A stretch of DNA of 40,589 nt, taken from Kiritimatiellia bacterium (GTDB taxonomy: Bacteria; Verrucomicrobiota; Kiritimatiellia; UBA8416; SLMC01). The notes under the pieces were generated by a model. That model saw only the letters and a program-made list of their open reading frames with translations. It had not been told where the DNA came from and made no database searches. Position numbers and translations under genes: made by a program. Shown here piece by piece: positions 21,647 through 37,941 of this stretch. Positions within the stretch are counted from its first letter, which is position 1; every line of letters starts with the position of its first letter. The stretch is from positions 1 to 40,589 of the forward strand of contig SLKS01000140.1 of assembly GCA_007134465.1 (NCBI GenBank), read 5' to 3'.

Positions 21647-23224
21647 CTAGCGTTCCTTCATGCCGCCCGCATACGTGATCACAGCCATGGTTCGATATTG
21701 CTTGTGCGGACCGACATTGACGCCTGTGACTCGGAAATCGGGGTTGTAGATGTTGATGCGATGCCCGCGATCGGGAACCCCGTCGTCTATGATCAGTTGC
21801 AGCACGATCTCGCGCGCGGTCGAAAACCCGTAGGCGATGTTTTCGGCACATCGCTGTTGCCATTGGCCATGACGGGAAATGCGATCCGCAGGCCGACTCT
21901 TGTCGGATCCGTCATGGCCGACCATGCCTCTGGGGCCCGTGTCCCGAACATGGTCCGCCGCGGCGAGCGAAAGCCCTTTGGAAGGCGCAAGCGGCCGGAC
22001 CGGCCGGGCCTTATCGAGGAATGCGATGGCTTCGTCCACTGCCGCCACGCCTTCTTGCGTACGACGGCGGGTGCTGCCGGACACATGAATGTTCCCCTGA
22101 AATCCGCGCCGATAGGCGCGCGCGAATTCCGCGTAGGCGGCCGGTTTCGTACGCGCGAGATTCTGCTCCGCGACTATTTCCTTTTCGAGCCGCGTCAGGT
22201 AATCGGCGTCTATCCCTTCGACGGGCACAATGCCGCCGCCGGCAAACAGCGTTTCCGGGCTCAGCCGCCACAGCGCGAAGCTCTGGCGCGGCGCGCGCAA
22301 ACCGACAACCAGCCATTCCCCGTTCCGACTGACAGCCAAACACGTCGGTTCGGTAACGAACGGATCGAATCTGTGCAAGGGTTCCAGTGTCCGGCCGCAG
22401 TGCAGAAACACGATCCTGCCTTGTCCGGCGCTGGCCAGGATGCGGTTATCCCCGCTTAAGGCCAAGGCATTAATGCGGCCCCTGTGATGCCTTGCCGTCG
22501 CGGACGGCGTCTCGGGGTCGGCCGCCCACAGGGCCAGCCGGCCGTCGGAACCGGCCACGACAAGTCCTTGGCCCTGGTCCGTAAACGCCAGACCGGACAC
22601 TTGCCCGCCGCTGTGCGGAACCCTGCGCTCGATCGCCCCGCCTTCCGCATGCCAAACGAGCGCCTGCCGGCCGCCGGCGCCGGCCAGCCGCTTGCCGTCC
22701 GGCGAAAAAACAACCGTGGCCGATTCCCCGGCGCCTGTGGACAGACGCTCGGTTTCCGCCCATGTGTCCGTATCGAACAGACGGATCGTTCCGTCCGATC
22801 CGGCGGCGGCCAGCCGCTTGCCGTCCGGCGAAAAAGCCAACGCCACGATTCGCCGGGCATCGGTGTCCACAGCCCGGATCGGCTTTCCGGTCTCGCTGTC
22901 CCAGATGTACAGCCGATTGTATCCTCCCGCCACAAGATGACGACCGACAGGAGCGAATGCCACGGAAACGGCGGAACCGCCCGGAATCAGCAGCGCGTGC
23001 TTTTCGCTGCCGTCTTCCATCGCCAGCAGATGAACACGCCGATTCGAGCCCGCCAGCGCCAGCCGCGAACCGTCGGGACTGAAGGCGGCAGCCTGCACAG
23101 TCCCGTAGGCCCGACCCGTCGCCCGTTCGCTCGCCGCCTCCTCGCTCATGACAGGCGTGCGAAGCAACGCGAACGCCACAACCGCTAGACCCGCCCGCCT
23201 GAAACCGTCTATCGTCCTTTTCAT
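21647..23224 (-). CDS. Secreted WD40 propeller fused to a CAP domain
   Basis: 525-aa protein with an N-terminal signal peptide (about 1-29). Seven WD40-type units follow (about 40-325), each with a VAFSPDG-like strand (AAAFSPDG, SVAFAPVG, ALAFSPDG, TVVFSPDG, GLAFTDQG, ALALSGDN, CLAVSRNG), enough for one closed propeller. The C-terminal part (about 345-525) is a CAP/SCP/PR-1 domain: QNLARTKP, HDGSD, AENIAYG, and the signature GHRINIYNPDFRVTGVNVG. The start at 23224 has GGAAGGTG upstream. CAP domains bind sterols, lipids or act in defence and adhesion; the bacterial role is mostly unknown. Blades 3 and 4 share an almost identical 25-base stretch 125 bases apart, a sign of recent internal duplication. 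Confidence 0.88.
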   Translation of the reverse strand: MKRTIDGFRRAGLAVVAFALLRTPVMSEEAASERATGRAYGTVQAAAFSPDGSRLALAGSNRRVHLLAMEDGSEKHALLIPGGSAVSVAFAPVGRHLVAGGYNRLYIWDSETGKPIRAVDTDARRIVALAFSPDGKRLAAAGSDGTIRLFDTDTWAETERLSTGAGESATVVFSPDGKRLAGAGGRQALVWHAEGGAIERRVPHSGGQVSGLAFTDQGQGLVVAGSDGRLALWAADPETPSATARHHRGRINALALSGDNRILASAGQGRIVFLHCGRTLEPLHRFDPFVTEPTCLAVSRNGEWLVVGLRAPRQSFALWRLSPETLFAGGGIVPVEGIDADYLTRLEKEIVAEQNLARTKPAAYAEFARAYRRGFQGNIHVSGSTRRRTQEGVAAVDEAIAFLDKARPVRPLAPSKGLSLAAADHVRDTGPRGMVGHDGSDKSRPADRISRHGQWQQRCAENIAYGFSTAREIVLQLIIDDGVPDRGHRINIYNPDFRVTGVNVGPHKQYRTMAVITYAGGMKER

Positions 23225-23359
23225 GTTTACACCTTCCCGGAGAACCGTTACGGTAGTTGCCCTGTTCTGTATCAAACGCTCGCCGAACAGGCAAGAACTA
23301 AGGGTTCGCGCAGAAATTAAGAAGAAACGCGCATCTTTACCGGAAAGGATTTGGCGCGC
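23225..23359. promoter_or_regulatory. Divergent region with an inverted repeat
   Basis: 135 bases between the WD40-CAP gene and a plus-strand orphan. It contains the inverted repeat TTGCCCTGTTC (23257-23267) / GAACAGGCAA (23285-23294), one bulge, which could be an operator or an RNA hairpin. AAAGGA at 23344-23349 serves the plus-strand gene. Confidence 0.3.
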
Positions 23360-23998
23360 ATGCCCGGATTGCTGAGAGATATCGGCGATGACGACCCGCT
23401 GGACAGGCCCCGCGCGGGCGGGCTCTGGATCGGCGGCGATTTCTTTGCCAATGCGGCCGCGAAATTCTGGCAGGGCCTGCTGGACGAACTGACCGAATTC
23501 TTCCCGAACTGTTCGCTGATCGAACTCTCCGCTCCTTCTGTTGGGCGGCTCGAGCCCGATCTGCTGTTTCCCGAACGCGCCTTGCAACGGCAGCTTGACG
23601 ACCTGCAGTTCGCCGATCCGACCCTCGCGCTGGCGGATGCGCTCGCCGAACTGAATCTAATGGGCCCGCCTTCGCCGGTTCAGGCCAGGCTTTTCGAGGG
23701 CCGCGAAACGATCCTGTCTCGGACAATGCCTCCGGAAAGCCTGGACGCGGAAACTTTTTCCTATCTGCTTGCCTGGCAGTTCCAGTGGGCGGGCATTCCC
23801 GCCACACGCTGGAACGAGCTGCAATTGAGCGGCATCGTTCAGGGAAAAGCTCCGGATCGGGAGCGAATGTACCGCATGACGTTCAGCTTGGCAGGGAGGC
23901 CTTTATCCGAAGGCCTGATCGCCCGTTCGTTTTCACTCGTGCCCCGCGTCACCACCGCCACCCCTGCTAGCGTCGGCGGCGAGCGGAATAGACTTTAA
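23360..23998 (+). CDS. Conserved-looking protein of unknown function
   Basis: 212-aa acidic cytoplasmic protein without signal peptide or membrane helix. It has an N-terminal GGLWIGGDFF stretch and long amphipathic helices (about 30-60 and 85-115), then a C-terminal beta-rich segment ending in Arg/Val. No family is recognised. ATG 23360 is chosen because AAAGGA lies 10 bases before it; a TTG at 23351 is too near. Codon use is like the neighbours. It is divergent from the WD40-CAP gene and its stop lies 4 bases from the convergent coaX stop. Confidence 0.65.
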   Translation: MPGLLRDIGDDDPLDRPRAGGLWIGGDFFANAAAKFWQGLLDELTEFFPNCSLIELSAPSVGRLEPDLLFPERALQRQLDDLQFADPTLALADALAELNLMGPPSPVQARLFEGRETILSRTMPPESLDAETFSYLLAWQFQWAGIPATRWNELQLSGIVQGKAPDRERMYRMTFSLAGRPLSEGLIARSFSLVPRVTTATPASVGGERNRL

Positions 23999-31783: not shown

Positions 31784-31958
31784 CGCCTGCCCCCCCCCTT
31801 TGCGTGTTGGCGTCAGAAAGAAACTACTTATTACCGGATTGCCAGCTTCGAGTTCAATGAAATATTGCGCGTTTTTTCACGAAACCTTAAACAAGGGGGC
31901 GTCCAATCAAGGCGTTTTCAAAAGGATCGAAATGCGGTTTTGGCCAGCGCAGACGTTT

Positions 31959-32162
31959 TTAGATAAGCGCGAAGCCCTTCAGCGCGTCCCTGGGCAGCCG
32001 CTTCTTGTGGCCGAGACTGATCAGGCGTTCGGCCACGGCGTCGGGATCGAGCCCGATGTCCTCGGCCCTGAGCTTGCGGGCCGCACGCCAGCGCCGCACG
32101 CCGGCCGAGGTCAACACGCCCTCGCGGGTCAGCAGATCGAGCATGGAGTTGTTGTCGTTCAT
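31959..32162 (-). CDS. Small protein of unknown function, duplicated (copy 1)
   Basis: 67 aa, almost identical to the protein at 36609-36812 (three differences). Charged and helical; it has a central WRAARKLRAEDIGLDPDAV stretch and ends KGFALI. No family is recognised. The start at ATG 32162 has AAAGGA 8 bases upstream; the frame is open further, into the SUMF1 gene, without homology. It faces away from the SUMF1 gene and shares its promoter region. The better conservation of this gene than of its neighbour between the copies suggests selection on the protein. Confidence 0.6.
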   Translation of the reverse strand: MNDNNSMLDLLTREGVLTSAGVRRWRAARKLRAEDIGLDPDAVAERLISLGHKKRLPRDALKGFALI

Positions 32163-32245
32163 AACAGGGTCCTTTCTTTTGGGTTTGATTACTGCACCGG
32201 TTTCCGGCAGGTTGGGTTTCGGTTTCCTGCACGGAGGAATCGCGA
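32163..32245. promoter_or_regulatory. Shared divergent region with two direct repeats (copy 1)
   Basis: Contains CGGTTTCCGGCA (32198-32209) and CGGTTTCCTGCA (32220-32231), 22 bases apart, i.e. about two helical turns, followed by a GGAGG ribosome site for the SUMF1 gene. Both repeats are kept unchanged in copy 2. Confidence 0.45.
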
Positions 32246-34420
32246 ATGAAGGCTTCATTGATTGCGCTGGCGGCGTTGGTCTCGGCCTGCGCCGGGTTCG
32301 GTGTCCGAGCCTCTGCCGATGACGCCGGCTCTTCGGAGTTCCCCGAGCGGAGCCGGTCGGCGGGCGACTTCATTGCCGTTGACGTGTCGGCGGGGCCTGC
32401 CGCCACCAACTATCCTGTCCGCTATTTCGCCACGGCCGAAGATGTGCCCGGCGGCGTTACCAATGATCTGTACAAGACTGTGCACATACTGCTGCGCCGC
32501 ATCCCGGCGGGGTCGTTCGTCATGGGCTCGCCCGAGGGCGAGCCGGGGCGCTTCGCCAGTCGCGAAGCCCAGCGACAGGTGACGCTGGCGAAAGACTATT
32601 ACATGGGCGTGTTCCCCGTGACTCAGAAACAGTGGGAACGGGTGATGGGAAACTGGCCGAGCTGGTTCGGCAATCCGGCCTATCGCGACAGTCGGCCGGT
32701 GGAAAGAGTCAGTTACTTTGACATTCGGGAGAACCCCGACAACAGCGCCATCAGCCCGAACTGGCCGCAGTCGAGCCTCGTGCATGCGGACTCGTTCATG
32801 GGCAAGCTGCGAGCGAAGACGGGGCTCTCGACCTTGGACTTGCCGACGGAAGCGCAGTGGGAATACGCCTGCCGGGCGGGGACCGGCACGGCGTTGAACA
32901 GCGGCAAGAACCTGACAAACGTTGAAGCCTGCCCGAACATGTCGGAAGTCGGGCGCTATCGTCATAACCATCCGGGCGAGTATTCCGACTGTTCAAGCGC
33001 GAGCACGGCTGGCGGCACGGCCAAGGCGGGTTCGCATGCGCCCAATGCCTGGGGCTTGTACGACATGCACGGGAACGTGTGGGAGTGGTGTCTGGACTGG
33101 TACACGGCGGCGGCGCCGGAAACGACGGATCCTGCAGGTGCAGCTTCGGGGTCGAGCCGCATATTGCGGGGCGGTTGCTGGAACTACGCCGCGGTGTTTT
33201 GCCGCTCCGCATGCCGGGACGGCAACGTCCCGTCGAACCGCAACGACAACCGCATCGGTTTCCGCCTCGCCATGCCCCTGCCCGCCGAGCGGCACATGTT
33301 GACGGTATCCAACGGTACGGGCGGCGGCTCGCATGCCGCAGGTTCGGCCGTGAACGTGGTGGCGGAAGCCGCGCCCTCAGGCCATATTTTCGCCACGTGG
33401 CGGGTTGCCCCTGCCGACGCGGATATGGGCGAAAATTTCGACCCGATGGCCGCGTCCGCCACGCTAACCATGCCGGACCATGCCGCAAGCTTGACGGCAA
33501 CATACGTCCAGGACGCAGGCGATTACATGGTCATTGATCTCTCCGGCGGGCCGACAGCAACGAAGTATCCGGTGAGCTACACGAACGCGGCCCCGGCCGG
33601 CGGCTGGACCGACGAGTACAAGACCACCAAGCTGGTCATGCGCCGCATCCCGGCAGGCACGTTCATGATGGGCTCGCCCGAGAGCGAGCTGGGACGCTCC
33701 CGCAGCGAAGCCCGGCGGCAGGTGACGCTGACGAAGGATTTCTACATCGGTGTCTTTCCCGTGACGCAGAAACAATGGGAGCGCGTGACGGGAAACTGGC
33801 CGAGCCGCTATCGCAACCAAGCCCACCGAGAAGCCAAACCGGTCGAGTCAGTCACGTACTACGAAATTCGGGAAAACCCGCTGCCGGTCCTCGACGATTA
33901 CAGCAAAGGCAGCCCCATCGCGACGAACTGGCCGCAGTCGAGCCTCGTGCATGCGGACTCGTTCATGGGCAAGCTGCGGGCGAAGACGGGGCTCTCGGCC
34001 TTGGACTTGCCGACGGAAGCGCAGTGGGAATACGCCTGCCGCGCGGGAACGACAACGGCGCTCAACAGATGGAAAAACCTCACCCATCACGAAGAATGCA
34101 CGAATTTGTCCGAAGTCGCCAAGTACAGTCGCAATCGTATCGGGGGCTACGGTCCGGCCAAGGTAGGCTCTTTTCTTCCCAACGTTTGGGGACTCTACGA
34201 CATGCACGGAAATATCCTGGAGTGGTGCCTGGACTGGTATACGGAGGCGCCGCCCGGAACGACGGATCCTGTGGGACCGGCTTCGGGGGCGTGGCGCACG
34301 ATGCGGGGCGGGTCATGGGACCGCATCGCCAGATTCTGCCGTTCGGCCAGTCGGTGCGCCAGCTGCCCCTTCGATCCCCGCAACATCTTTGGCCTGCGCC
34401 TCGCCATGACCGTGCCATGA
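32246..34420 (+). CDS. Exported protein with two SUMF1/FGE domains and a bacterial-repeat domain
   Basis: 724 aa. Signal peptide 1-24; LVSAC at 11-15 could be a lipobox. Domain order: SUMF1/FGE-type C-type-lectin fold (about 85-343), a divergent InlB-like repeat (about 351-421, LTVSNGTGGGSHAAGSAV start and TLTMPDHAASLTATY end), and a second SUMF1 domain (about 463-724). Each SUMF1 domain shows IPAGxFxMGSP, GVFPVTQKQWERV, LPTEAQWEYACRAGT, WGLYDMHGN and RGG(C/S)W...CRSA. The Cys that would align to the second catalytic Cys of formylglycine-generating enzyme is Ser, so sulfatase activation is unlikely; a binding role is more likely. Both domains end in a DGR-like variable segment. GGAGG lies 8 bases before ATG 32246. 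Confidence 0.88.
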   Translation: MKASLIALAALVSACAGFGVRASADDAGSSEFPERSRSAGDFIAVDVSAGPAATNYPVRYFATAEDVPGGVTNDLYKTVHILLRRIPAGSFVMGSPEGEPGRFASREAQRQVTLAKDYYMGVFPVTQKQWERVMGNWPSWFGNPAYRDSRPVERVSYFDIRENPDNSAISPNWPQSSLVHADSFMGKLRAKTGLSTLDLPTEAQWEYACRAGTGTALNSGKNLTNVEACPNMSEVGRYRHNHPGEYSDCSSASTAGGTAKAGSHAPNAWGLYDMHGNVWEWCLDWYTAAAPETTDPAGAASGSSRILRGGCWNYAAVFCRSACRDGNVPSNRNDNRIGFRLAMPLPAERHMLTVSNGTGGGSHAAGSAVNVVAEAAPSGHIFATWRVAPADADMGENFDPMAASATLTMPDHAASLTATYVQDAGDYMVIDLSGGPTATKYPVSYTNAAPAGGWTDEYKTTKLVMRRIPAGTFMMGSPESELGRSRSEARRQVTLTKDFYIGVFPVTQKQWERVTGNWPSRYRNQAHREAKPVESVTYYEIRENPLPVLDDYSKGSPIATNWPQSSLVHADSFMGKLRAKTGLSALDLPTEAQWEYACRAGTTTALNRWKNLTHHEECTNLSEVAKYSRNRIGGYGPAKVGSFLPNVWGLYDMHGNILEWCLDWYTEAPPGTTDPVGPASGAWRTMRGGSWDRIARFCRSASRCASCPFDPRNIFGLRLAMTVP
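33167..33265 (+). other. DGR-like variable region, SUMF1 domain 1
   Basis: Residues 308-340. Invariant scaffold RGG-W, CRSA-R, P, R, GFR; between these the variable codons (residues N, Y, A; F; C; D, G, N; N; N, D, N; I) all end in C or T, as they would if copied from AAC template codons with adenine mutation. Inference: no template or reverse transcriptase is in the window. Confidence 0.45.
34304..34399 (+). other. DGR-like variable region, SUMF1 domain 2
   Basis: C-terminal segment of the 724-aa protein. Same scaffold RGGSW, CRSA-R, R, G-R; variable residues D, R, I; F; S; C, A, S and N, I, F are again from NNC or NNT codons. It is one codon shorter than the other two regions, and the stop follows after LAMTVP. 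Confidence 0.45.
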
Positions 34421-34451
34421 TCATGCCACTGCGGACGGCGCGTGACGACGT

Positions 34452-34981
34452 ATGAGAAGGCTGGAGGCTGATCCTGGCGCGCTTTTCTTGACTTGGCCAT
34501 CCTCGCCAGTGTGTTCAAAGCGGCTCCGGTCGAAGAGGTCCAGAAATACGTCGCCTCCGCGCCGAGGGGCAAGTACGCCCGTCGACTGTGGTTTCTTTAC
34601 GAGATGCTCACCGGCTCATCGCTCCCTATGGAGGACCTGAAGACGGGCGGTTACATCGACCTGATCGAGCCCGCCGAGTACTACACGGTGGTCCAGCCTC
34701 GTCCGGTGCGCCGTCAGCGAATCAACGACAACCTGCTGGGAGACGGGCAATTCTGTCCGACAATTCGACGAACCGAAGCGTTGCGTGGATTTGAAAAGGC
34801 CGATCTGCCTGCACGGTGCCGGAAGATTGATCTCTTCATCCAGGCGTGCTTGCCGAACAACGGTCGGCTTTCCGCACGTAAACGCGCCAGCCATTTCGAA
34901 TTCCTGTCGGACGATGAACTGGCGCAAATGGAGGATGCCATTCGATCCGCCTACGGCAATCGCGAGACGCAGGAACCATAG
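34452..34981 (+). pseudogene. Fic-family protein fragment without FIC motif
   Basis: The frame 34493-34981 (TTG start, 162 aa) resembles the N-terminal part of large Fic proteins: GKYARRLWFLYEMLTG, DLKTGGYIDLIEPAEYYTV, and INDNLLGDGQFCPTIRRTEAL are the usual landmarks. The catalytic HPFxxGNGR motif that should come later is absent; the frame ends at TAG... read as a stop after NRETQEP. Upstream, residues MRRLEADPGALFL in another frame (ATG 34452) look like the missing start, implying a frameshift near 34490. Read as a broken gene. It lies between the SUMF1 gene and hipA. Confidence 0.55.
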
Positions 34982-35003
34982 GATTTCCTTCGGGCTCGGG
35001 TGT

Positions 35004-36248
35004 TCATTTCAGGCCCTGAAGGAATAAGGCCGCTCGCTCTTTAATGATGCCAGCCACGCGTTCCACCATGCCGGGGTCGTTGGCAGCGTTCAGAACGGCC
35101 TCGTCCCGCAGTCCATCGATGCACTTGCCGCACAGGTCCACGATCCGTTCACGCAGCATAGGCCAGCCCACGCGGCATTCCCCGGCCATCTTCTGCCAGT
35201 GCGCGGGTGTGATCGTCTCAATGGATTCGCTCTTTCCGATCTTCATGGCCGGAGTCTTGGACAGTTCGGGCCAAGCCAGCGTGCAGACCAGATCGTAGAA
35301 CGGCGCAAGCCTGCGGTCGGTCTTGCCGCAGAGGATCGAGTAGTTCTTGCCATGCGCGTCGGCATTCCCGATCAGCGCATTGAAAATCAACCCGTCCAGG
35401 AAGTCCCGGATGTCCAGCGCCGACAAGGTGGACCACTCCCGAAGCAGACCGATACAGTCGCGGAGCAGCGGTCCGCCTTCCTGTTGATACTTCCGCTCCG
35501 GGGGGAACCCCAGCGCTTGGCAGAAGTCCTCCTGGTGAACACGCGTGACCGAGCCGTTGGCGTCTATGGATCGGTCGTAGCGCTGAACGACAATGCACGG
35601 CTTGTTGCCGACCGGGCGGTTGGACACCCGAGGCACGTTCAGGCCGACCGATCTGGCCAGCGTCATGCAGAGAACCTCGTTGGCCACCAGTCCCGTGAAT
35701 CGCTCGGGCTCCGGTTTGATGATATGCGTGCTCGGCGTGTTGCCGAGAGGCAGCGAGAGGGTCGCATCCCGAATCAGGACCGGCAACTTCGACTGCGATC
35801 CAGCCAACGAAAGCCGCAACCCTTCGCGTCCCGCCATCAGAGGACGGCGGGGAAGTTCTGCGACAATATCCTCCAACTCGCTTTCGCTCAGTTCACGAGT
35901 ACGGGTCTCGCCTACGGTCGGAGCAGGCGCGTGCTCCGGTAGCAGGCTGACCGCTCCCGCGCATTCGCCGCCGATCCGTTCCAGCATGGCGAAGTCGTTG
36001 CGCTCGCTGATTCCGAGAATGGCGGCGATCTGTTGCCGGGGCCCCTCATCGGGGAGGATGCCGGCGAAGAAAGGGCGAGCATGCTTGCCTCGGAACAGTT
36101 CGCTCTGGAGCGGCAGCGACCGGGAAAGCGGGATGGCATCCGACCTGCCTTCCCATTCCGAATCATAGCGGAACTCGAGCAGCCCGCTGTCATCCTCGTC
36201 CAGAGCGCCGACCCGCTCGCCATTCAGGTAGACGATCAATCGCTTCAT
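35004..36248 (-). CDS. hipA: HipA-family toxin, Ser/Thr protein kinase
   Basis: 414 aa, full length. The N-terminal Couple_hipA domain (about 3-105) includes YDSEWEG and ARPFFAGILPDEGPR. The kinase core has the Gly/Ser loop LAGSQSKL (148-155), HIIKPE (175-180), VVQRYDR (220-226), catalytic NADAHGKN (295-302, Asp297) and the metal Asp in FYDL (317-320). All key residues are present, so an active kinase is likely; E. coli HipA phosphorylates GltX, but the target here is unknown. Overlaps hipB by 4 bases (ATGA) as part of the same operon. Confidence 0.95.
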   Translation of the reverse strand: MKRLIVYLNGERVGALDEDDSGLLEFRYDSEWEGRSDAIPLSRSLPLQSELFRGKHARPFFAGILPDEGPRQQIAAILGISERNDFAMLERIGGECAGAVSLLPEHAPAPTVGETRTRELSESELEDIVAELPRRPLMAGREGLRLSLAGSQSKLPVLIRDATLSLPLGNTPSTHIIKPEPERFTGLVANEVLCMTLARSVGLNVPRVSNRPVGNKPCIVVQRYDRSIDANGSVTRVHQEDFCQALGFPPERKYQQEGGPLLRDCIGLLREWSTLSALDIRDFLDGLIFNALIGNADAHGKNYSILCGKTDRRLAPFYDLVCTLAWPELSKTPAMKIGKSESIETITPAHWQKMAGECRVGWPMLRERIVDLCGKCIDGLRDEAVLNAANDPGMVERVAGIIKERAALFLQGLK

Positions 36249-36484
36249 GGCTTCTTGCTTCCGGCATCATCGCCGCCGAGGGGCGTTATCTCGATGGCCA
36301 ATCCAAGCGCCTGCAATACCTGGAACGTCTTGCCAATCTGGCAGGTGGGCTTCCCCTTCTCCAGATCAACAATGAAGCGCAGCCCCGTGCCACAGGTCAT
36401 GGCCAGTTCCTTCTGGGTGATCTTCAGCCGCTTGCGCCGCGTTCGGATCGCCATGCCGATTTGTTCTGAAGCTTTCATTTTCAT
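36245..36484 (-). CDS. hipB: HipB-family antitoxin, XRE-type repressor
   Basis: 79-aa helix-turn-helix protein: GMAIRTRRKRLKITQKELA forms helices 1-2, and TGLRFIVDLEKGKPT includes the recognition helix. It ends in a short polar tail (GGDDAGSKKP), as in HipB. ATG 36484 is chosen; an ATG/GTG at 36508 would run into the operator. It neutralises HipA and represses the operon in known systems. Two palindromic sites just upstream fit autoregulation. Confidence 0.92.
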   Translation of the reverse strand: MKMKASEQIGMAIRTRRKRLKITQKELAMTCGTGLRFIVDLEKGKPTCQIGKTFQVLQALGLAIEITPLGGDDAGSKKP

Positions 36485-36486
36485 AG

Positions 36487-36549
36487 TTCCCGAGCGGTAA
36501 CATCGCACGCCGCAGTAGATTCGTCAACCGGTATTTTACCGTTCGGGAA
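36487..36549 (-). promoter_or_regulatory. Candidate hipBA promoter with paired operators
   Basis: TTCCCGAGCGGTAA (36487-36500) and TTACCGTTCGGGAA (36536-36549) are reverse complements except one base, and each is itself a near palindrome (TTCCCG/CGGxAA type). Centres are 49 bases apart. A minus-strand TTGACG hexamer lies between them, with GATGTT 17 bases on at the inner operator. Fits HipB autorepression. Confidence 0.6.
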
Positions 36550-36608
36550 TGCCGTGGTTCAAACCCCCTCATAGGATCGAAATGCGGTTTGGGCCAGCGC
36601 AGACGTTT

Positions 36609-36812
36609 TTAGATAAGCGCGAAGCCCTTCAGCGCGTCCCTGGGCATCCGCTTCTTGTGGCCGAGACTGATCAGGCGTTCGGCCACGGCGTCGGGATCGA
36701 GCCCGATGTCCTCGGCCCTGAGCTTGCGGGCCGCGCGCCAGCGCCGCACGCCGGCCGAGGCCAGCACGCCCTCGCGGGTCAGCAGATCGAGCATGGAGTT
36801 GTTGTCGGTCAT
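36609..36812 (-). CDS. Small protein of unknown function, duplicated (copy 2)
   Basis: 67 aa; differs from copy 1 at residues 2 (Thr for Asn), 18 (Ala for Thr) and 57 (Met for Leu). AAAGGA lies ahead of ATG 36812. Same divergent position relative to the SUMF1 gene. Persistence of an intact frame in both copies with few changes supports it being a real gene. Confidence 0.6.
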   Translation of the reverse strand: MTDNNSMLDLLTREGVLASAGVRRWRAARKLRAEDIGLDPDAVAERLISLGHKKRMPRDALKGFALI

Positions 36813-36897
36813 AACGGAGTCCTTTCTCTTTTGAGTTTGCTTACTGCACCGGTTTCCGGCAGGTTGGGTTTCGGTTTCCTGCACGGAGGGATTTTGA
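36813..36897. promoter_or_regulatory. Shared divergent region with two direct repeats (copy 2)
   Basis: CGGTTTCCGGCA (36850-36861) and CGGTTTCCTGCA (36872-36883), the same 22-base spacing as in copy 1. A GGAGGG ribosome site follows for the SUMF1 gene. Confidence 0.45.
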
Positions 36898-37941
36898 ATG
36901 AAGACTTCAGTGATTGCGTTGGCTGCGCTGGTCTCGGCCTGCGCCGGGTTCGGTGTCCGCGCCTCTGCCGATGACGCCGGATCTTCGGAGTCCCCCGAGC
37001 GGAGCCGGTCGGCCGGCGACTACATGGCCATAGACGTGTCGGCGGGTCCTGCCGCCACCAACTATCCCGTTCGGTATTTCGCCACAGGAGAAGACGTTCC
37101 CGGCGGCGTCACCAACGATCTGTACAAGACCACCCACATACTGATGCGCCGCATTCCGGCTGGCACGTTTACCATGGGTTCGCCCGAGGGCGAGTTGGGG
37201 CGCAATAGCGACGAAGCCCAGCGCGAGGTGACGCTGACGAAGGATTTCTACATCGGGGTGTTCCCGGTCACACAGCGGCAGTGGGAACGCGTGGCGGGCA
37301 ACTGGCCGAGCTGGTTCAGGAACACGTCGTACCGCGACAGCCGTCCCGTGGAGCAGGTCAGCTACTTGAAAATCCGAGAGTGCCCGAACAACAACCCGAT
37401 CAGCCCGAACTGGCCAAAGTCGAGCCAGGTGCACGCGGACTCGTTCATGGGCAGGCTGCGGGCCAGGACAGGGCTTTCGACGCTGGACCTGCCGACGGAG
37501 GCGCAGTGGGAATACGCCTGCCGTGCGGGAACGACGACGGCACTGAACTCGGGCAAGAATCTGACAAATACGGAATCTTGTCCGAACATGGATGAGGCGG
37601 GACGGTATAGGCACAACCATCCCGGCGGGTATGATCCAATGTTCCCAACGAGCACGAACGCGGACGGGGGCACGGCGAAAGTGGGCTCGTATCTTCCCAA
37701 TGCCTGGGGACTGTACGACACGCACGGGAACGTGTTGGAGTGGTGCCTGGACCGGCATCTGGCCGAGGCGCCGTGGTCGGCGGATCCCGAGGATGCGGTT
37801 TTGGGGTCGTTCCGCACAACTCGGGGCGGGAGCTGGGGCTGCAACGCCAGGCACTGCCGCTCCGCGTACCGGCTCAGCGGCACCCCGGACTTTCGGCTCA
37901 GCAACTACGTCGGCTTTCGCATCGCCATGACCGTACCGTAA
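36898..37941 (+). CDS. Exported single-domain SUMF1/FGE-fold protein
   Basis: 347 aa. Signal peptide and first 80 residues nearly match the 724-aa protein at 32246-34420 (MK-SxIALAALVSACAGFG start). One SUMF1 domain: IPAGTFTMGSP, GVFPVTQRQWERV, LPTEAQWEYACRAGT, WGLYDTHGN, RGGSW and CRSAYR. As in the other copy, the position of the second catalytic FGE Cys is not Cys. The C-terminus carries the clearest of the three DGR-like variable segments and ends IAMTVP. A 48-aa gene on the other strand starts its stop 10 bases after this stop. Confidence 0.88.
   Translation: MKTSVIALAALVSACAGFGVRASADDAGSSESPERSRSAGDYMAIDVSAGPAATNYPVRYFATGEDVPGGVTNDLYKTTHILMRRIPAGTFTMGSPEGELGRNSDEAQREVTLTKDFYIGVFPVTQRQWERVAGNWPSWFRNTSYRDSRPVEQVSYLKIRECPNNNPISPNWPKSSQVHADSFMGRLRARTGLSTLDLPTEAQWEYACRAGTTTALNSGKNLTNTESCPNMDEAGRYRHNHPGGYDPMFPTSTNADGGTAKVGSYLPNAWGLYDTHGNVLEWCLDRHLAEAPWSADPEDAVLGSFRTTRGGSWGCNARHCRSAYRLSGTPDFRLSNYVGFRIAMTVP
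37822..37920 (+). other. DGR-like variable region, single-domain SUMF1 protein
   Basis: Scaffold RGGSW, AR, CRSA-R, TPD, R, GFR. The 14 variable positions read G, C, N; H; Y; L, S, G; F; L, S, N, Y, V: 13 of 14 codons end in C and one is TTT, none codes for K, E, Q, M or W. That is the set produced when adenines of AAC codons are randomised. Conserved codons between them often end in G (CGG, GGG, TGG, AGG, GCG, CCG), so the pattern is not just local GC use. Confidence 0.5.

Follow-up and report, generated by a model that had tools for sequence, protein, structure and literature searches.

The DNA considered here, referred to as the window, is the entire contig C44 (40,589 bases) of the 4.0-Mb assembly of a Kiritimatiellia bacterium, which comprises 409 contigs and is 85.2% complete. 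It carries two genes of the formylglycine-generating enzyme (FGE)-sulfatase type, which together encode three FGE domains (copies 1 to 3; Table 1), and each of these domains, which have the C-type-lectin fold, bears at its C-terminal end a segment resembling the variable region of a diversity-generating retroelement (DGR) target. The segments had been noticed in a preliminary description made from the sequence alone, whose coordinates and reading frame are correct and whose account of a scaffold that is kept while the intervening residues differ from copy to copy could be confirmed. Inspection by eye suggests a signal-like stretch at the N-terminus of the 724-residue protein, which may include a lipobox (VSAC). 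The proteins with the three domains, which have the FGE/C-type-lectin fold, probably serve as binding proteins that are secreted or anchored by lipid, presumably exposed at the cell surface and presumably engaging a ligand.

Table 1 FGE-sulfatase genes, variable-region-like segments and duplicated units of the window
Feature	Position	Strand	Remarks
FGE-sulfatase gene, copies 1 and 2	32246..34420	+	724 residues, two domains with an InlB-type repeat between them
PF03781 domain, copy 1	32501-33271	+	Family profile match
PF03781 domain, copy 2	33644-34405	+	Family profile match
InlB-type repeat linking copies 1 and 2	about 33296-33514	+	PF18998, residues 351-423
FGE-sulfatase gene, copy 3	36898..37941	+	347 residues, one domain; PF03781 at 37150-37926
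Variable-region-like segment, copy 1	33167..33265	+	RGGCWNYAAVFCRSACRDGNVPSNRNDNRIGFR
Variable-region-like segment, copy 2	34304..34399	+	RGGSWDRIARFCRSASRCASCPFDPRNIFGLR; shorter by one codon
Variable-region-like segment, copy 3	37822..37920	+	RGGSWGCNARHCRSAYRLSGTPDFRLSNYVGFR; of the three copies nearest to the template consensus
Duplicated unit, first copy	31923..33181		About 320 upstream bases and most of the copy 1 coding sequence; 84% identity to 36573-37836
Duplicated unit, second copy	36573..37836		Pairs with 31923-33181

Evidence for a DGR origin of the segments comes from their codons. Variable columns are defined here as the 14 columns that are mostly AAC or AAT in the template repeats of related genomes; some tests use nine columns. 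In these columns, the third base of all 42 codons of the three copies is C (39 codons) or T (3 codons), no codon encodes K, E, Q, M or W, and copy 3 holds 13 NNC codons and one TTT, exactly as previously described. If copy 2 is aligned to the templates without gaps, it has 13 such columns, again with a C- or T-ending codon in every one (codons read by eye). The three T-ending codons all fall on columns (10, 15 and 23) in which AAT occurs in some of the templates. For the nine-column set, the window copies give 27 of 27 C- or T-ending codons and 0 of 27 codons for K, E, Q, M or W. Outside the segments, C and T together account for 48-51% and C for 36-38% of the third bases in the same genes, and the excess of C-ending codons in the nine columns over 220 upstream codons corresponds to p = 3.8e-5, 1.4e-3 and 2.0e-3 for copies 1, 2 and 3, respectively. 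Four additional FGE segments from this genome (L207, L213 at 2167, L224, L229) contain 2, 2, 3 and 2 residues of the K/E/Q/M/W group, with 58-71% C- or T-ending codons over 22-24 codons, in a comparison that left out regular-expression matches in other frames as non-FGE (L213 at 2994, L219 minus strand, L228, L230); the comparison segments from genomes G001 and G002 contain 2 and 1 such residues. Additionally, where the amino acid differs between copies, the third base is kept in 33/37 cells of the variable columns versus 98/194 elsewhere (Fisher p = 5e-6), the cells being drawn from three overlapping and hence non-independent copy pairs, of which the pair of copies 1 and 3 alone gives p = 0.05. 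The variable codons thus have the form expected in a DGR target, namely NNC or NNT only, derivable from AAY with the third base retained.

Template repeats of matching scaffold exist in related organisms. The set of relatives comprised 76 genomes including the present one, with FGE relatives in 66 and matches to the reverse transcriptase family RVT_1 in 37. Genomes of the same order and of the same class carry DGRs composed of an FGE target, an AAC-rich template and a reverse transcriptase with an IGxxxSQ motif, which we take to be the mark of DGR reverse transcriptases. This motif was found in the related DGRs wherever the enzyme was read, while the reverse transcriptases of G003, G038, G052 and G060, genomes with orthologs of the window genes, read QGxxxSP. 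The reverse transcriptase adjoins the FGE gene in G016 (two loci), G012, G020 and G058, and at each of these loci a template and a variable region were detected with a script for near-repeats with adenine-specific mismatches; three additional complete template/target pairs were found at other loci. Of the 175 mismatches in these eight pairs, 171 fall on template adenines, a count from which the partial pairs L113 and L116 and later-found pairs were excluded. Weak near-repeat matches at L125, L134, L166 and L168 were judged to be chance or tandem repeats. The accessory genes of G012 and of G016 contig C272, the two that were scanned, match bAvd above the cut-off. As summarised by eye, the 23 template segments collected encode the consensus RGGSW-NNN-A-x-N-CRSA-N-R-NNNN-P-x-N-R-NNN-I-GFR, and the variable columns of the window are the AAC columns of these segments. 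Because related genomes hold templates of the same scaffold, the assignment of the window segments as DGR variable regions by origin can be regarded as well supported. To this extent, the earlier suggestion stands.

One template pattern is present in 16 of the 345 genomes of the class and absent from this genome. The targets of L081 (G016:C28), L083 (G012:C50) and L131 share the scaffold with the window copies, have templates with AAC where the window varies, and are 44-58% identical to copy 3, with the target of G016:C28 at 58%; unlike the window copies, they lie beside a reverse transcriptase and a template and match the latter at non-adenine bases. Two or three templates per genome occur in G016, G027, G149 and G161. 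In G149 (C101, C107) and G161 (C73, C281, C241), these are repeats of the same scaffold on separate contigs, which suggests several DGRs per genome.

Comparison of the three window copies among themselves reveals divergence. In line with an earlier caution, copies 1 and 3 also differ outside the segment, where 59 of 226 aligned codons alter the amino acid. Copies written from one template should agree at non-adenine sites; here, such sites differ at 12/68 (copies 1 and 3), 20/67 (copies 1 and 2) and 15/67 (copies 3 and 2), and third positions of the segment scaffolds at 9/33, 15/32 and 10/32, respectively. Hence, no single template wrote all three copies recently. Copies 1 and 3 disagree at 26 of 31 adenine sites compared with 12 of 68 other sites, nine of those twelve being third positions. 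As the adenine columns coincide with loop columns of the domain, this contrast is confounded with loop divergence and alone cannot tell DGR writing from it. The third-base test can do so, and its result favours writing. Mismatches to the template consensus at non-adenine sites amount to 8/68 in copy 3, 13/68 in copy 1 and 18/67 in copy 2, compared with 8-17 in the eight proven targets and a median of 18 in 55 other segments. In the two duplicated units, 59-60 of 60 bases agree immediately upstream but 35 of 60 in the variable region, so that the history may include conversion and simple dating is impossible. The duplicate also comprises a 67-residue open reading frame (31962-32162 and 36612-36812, both on the minus strand), divergent from the FGE genes, whose copies are 95.5% identical and which matches the start of DUF3150 weakly, below the cut-off; near it, the upstream copies are in places identical at 59-60 of 60 bases, whereas the adjoining FGE genes are far more diverged.

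Ancestry was assessed with a quick tree of 75 of 85 FGE domains from which the segment had been removed. Rows with a short upstream frame were omitted, and thereby two of the eight proven targets (L085, L119); support values are from the Shimodaira-Hasegawa-like approximate likelihood-ratio test (SH-aLRT) only, and the loci had been picked by likeness to copy 3, so that clade composition is biased. The window copies fall into a group of 40 rows (SH-aLRT 99) together with the proven targets L028, L105 and L131, with poorly resolved internal branching; their nearest rows, L023 and L022, are both without an adjacent template. By protein similarity, the named relatives are metagenome-assembled genomes of Lentisphaerae/Kiritimatiellae, the best being 57% identical. 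A further FGE segment of this genome (G000 contig C264, 4664-4759; L219, L319) is of the CRVA/CRVG template type, with 21 of 24 codons ending in C or T and none for K, E, Q, M or W. Its gene groups with the DGR target L084 in a four-row tree group and is probably a fourth orphaned DGR target, of a different scaffold type.

The fold, with its variable stretch at the C-terminal end of the domain, is that of known DGR targets. A profile of 11 family members ranked TvpA, a DGR target of Treponema, first among PDB sequences (E 5.7e-35), while copy 3 alone retrieved formylglycine-generating enzymes first and TvpA tenth. The AlphaFold2 model of copy 3 (pLDDT 80.9) matches the structure of PvdO, then TvpA, at rank three of the structure search, then FGE. 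With TvpA of Treponema denticola (PDB 2y3c) and other FGE-type DGR targets, the window domains share the FGE/C-type-lectin fold, the C-terminal variable region and the scaffold; in contrast to these, no template or reverse transcriptase was found in the window genome, and two of the window domains share one gene with an InlB-type linker. The domains likewise share family (PF03781) and fold with FGE (SUMF1) and PvdO. Catalysis by FGE depends on a pair of cysteines, which is kept in copy 3 only; the first of them aligns with a variable column, where copies 1, 2 and 3 have Y, R and C, respectively.

The preliminary description had proposed a genome search for a DGR reverse transcriptase, Avd and an AAC template, and this search came back empty. 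The 409 contigs contain no match to RVT_1 (PF00078) and no relative of the G012 DGR reverse transcriptase, five patterns yielded no template repeat across them, and no template was detected within the window, including by the template/variable-region pair finder. No Avd accessory gene exceeded the cut-off, which is 40 bits, the single PF22296 match scoring 29.8. That contig C308 might end within an Avd-linked element was considered and rejected, as the gene in question encodes a small protein of 129 residues, follows type II secretion-like genes and has neither a target nor a template in its vicinity. Thus, none of the three parts of a complete DGR, i.e. reverse transcriptase, matching template and Avd or a similar accessory gene, was found in this assembly. 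Neither reverse transcriptase nor template nor bAvd was found in G001 and G002, genomes of the same genus and the same family (79% and 90% complete). G036, which lacks an RVT_1 match, has a bAvd match above the cut-off, which may represent a lost or missed element. Copy 3 and the foreign template closest to it disagree at 7 of 67 non-adenine sites. A phage origin was rejected, the nearest records of a phage collection and of viral contigs being only 37% and 43% identical. One exact template pattern is absent from the viral contigs, some of which hold template/target pairs of more distant kinds; on L241, L242, L262, L263 and L309, template/variable-region pairs adjoin FGE-type relatives of the proteins in the window.

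With moderate confidence, the three domains are read here as orphaned DGR targets. In the past, a DGR reverse transcriptase would have copied template repeats rich in AAC, placing random bases at the adenines, and the resulting complementary DNA would have replaced the ends of the FGE genes, turning AAC into NNC codons. Later, the genes would have been duplicated and would have drifted at scaffold sites, the element no longer being found beside them. Past writing of these very copies and loss, rather than non-assembly, of the element are what we infer. Drift after writing would also give the first-position C that is commoner in the window copies (7/42) than in proven targets (3/113; p = 0.004).

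Several points weigh against orphaned targets. A template for these exact scaffolds was found nowhere searched, and about 15% of the genome is unassembled, where DGRs could sit, so that absence is no proof. T-ending codons make up only 3/42, compared with 25% of the C- or T-ending codons outside (p = 0.003), and the signature has thus barely decayed. The C share of 25/27 is similar to that of proven targets (61/72) and exceeds that of four segments of G003, G052 and G038 (24/36, p = 0.014), which were picked by the authors from QGxxxSP genomes, with L026 at 1078, L090 and L025 of G060 uncounted. Near-intact signature and high C share favour recent writing.

Such writing is what an alternative invokes in which the segments are still being rewritten in trans, each from its own or a shared template, by one or several DGRs that reside on a mobile element or in the part of the genome missing from the assembly. 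Besides the almost intact NNC codons, the coincidence of all three T-ending codons with template AAT and the incomplete assembly, several templates per genome occur in the class. Remote targets have precedents in cyanobacteria and T. denticola (PMC7517822, PMC4891356), and a metagenome survey states that its own approach would miss them (PMC8144416). On the other hand, neither reverse transcriptase nor template was found in the assembly, the non-adenine differences between the scaffolds require at least two templates, and the base spectrum at codon position 1 is unlike that of proven targets (p = 0.003 overall). Current targets of a DGR elsewhere in the genome, as the preliminary description had them, are considered rather unlikely.

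Ordinary divergence of FGE domains without any DGR would attribute the codons to loops favouring N, D, S, G, Y and the like, with their C- or T-ending codons, in a genome that prefers C. The scaffold is indeed the natural FGE family consensus, as the preliminary description rightly cautioned, the adenine contrast is confounded as stated, a similar leaning is seen in 74 further FGE segments for which no template was matched (81% C- or T-ending, 53/666 K/E/Q/M/W), and segment L032 of G036 (96% complete, without an RVT_1 match) has the same signature (9/9 C or T, 8/9 C). Nevertheless, this explanation is improbable given the nine-column counts, the K/E/Q/M/W residues in the four other segments of the same genome and the retained third bases, and many of the 74 segments could be DGR targets, past or present, in their own right. 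G036, moreover, has the bAvd match above the cut-off.

Within the reading as orphaned targets, it is possible, although doubtful, that a frozen repertoire is at hand, i.e. that useful DGR-written variants were fixed and, after duplication and loss or silencing of the element, inherited as an array of binders, and that this is a common fate in the class. Further examples would then be L032 in G036, L023, L024, L026 and L091 in G003, G052 and G038, each with one RVT_1 match read as QGxxxSP, and the C264 gene of the present genome.

The remaining scanned genes of the window look chromosomal. Between the two FGE genes (35004-36484, minus strand) lie a HipA-like gene and a small helix-turn-helix (HipB-like) gene, a probable toxin-antitoxin pair. 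At 21647-23587 (minus strand), one protein combines WD40-type beta-propeller repeats with a CAP (cysteine-rich secretory) domain.

The system is of a known kind and involves no new mechanism; it is a new instance of a DGR-target type. FGE-type DGR targets, remote targets and targets without an element have already been described (PMC4891356, PMC3521204, PMC7517822), among them FGE-type target genes of T. denticola without core DGR components (PMC4891356). In these T. denticola remnants and in cyanobacterial variable-protein homologs (PMC4891356, PMC7517822), target genes persist without the element, as in the window. Unlike there, where a matching template or element is known from other isolates or the same genome, only related, non-matching templates are available for the window. 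No literature joining DGRs with 'Kiritimatiell' was found. Surveys of DGRs that take the reverse transcriptase as their starting point overlook targets distant from it, as one large survey itself states (PMC8144416). In contrast, the codon test applied here, i.e. NNC at template-AAC columns with an unchanged third base where residues differ, needs nothing but the target itself to identify it as former or remote, and would reveal how frequently variants made by a DGR outlast the element.

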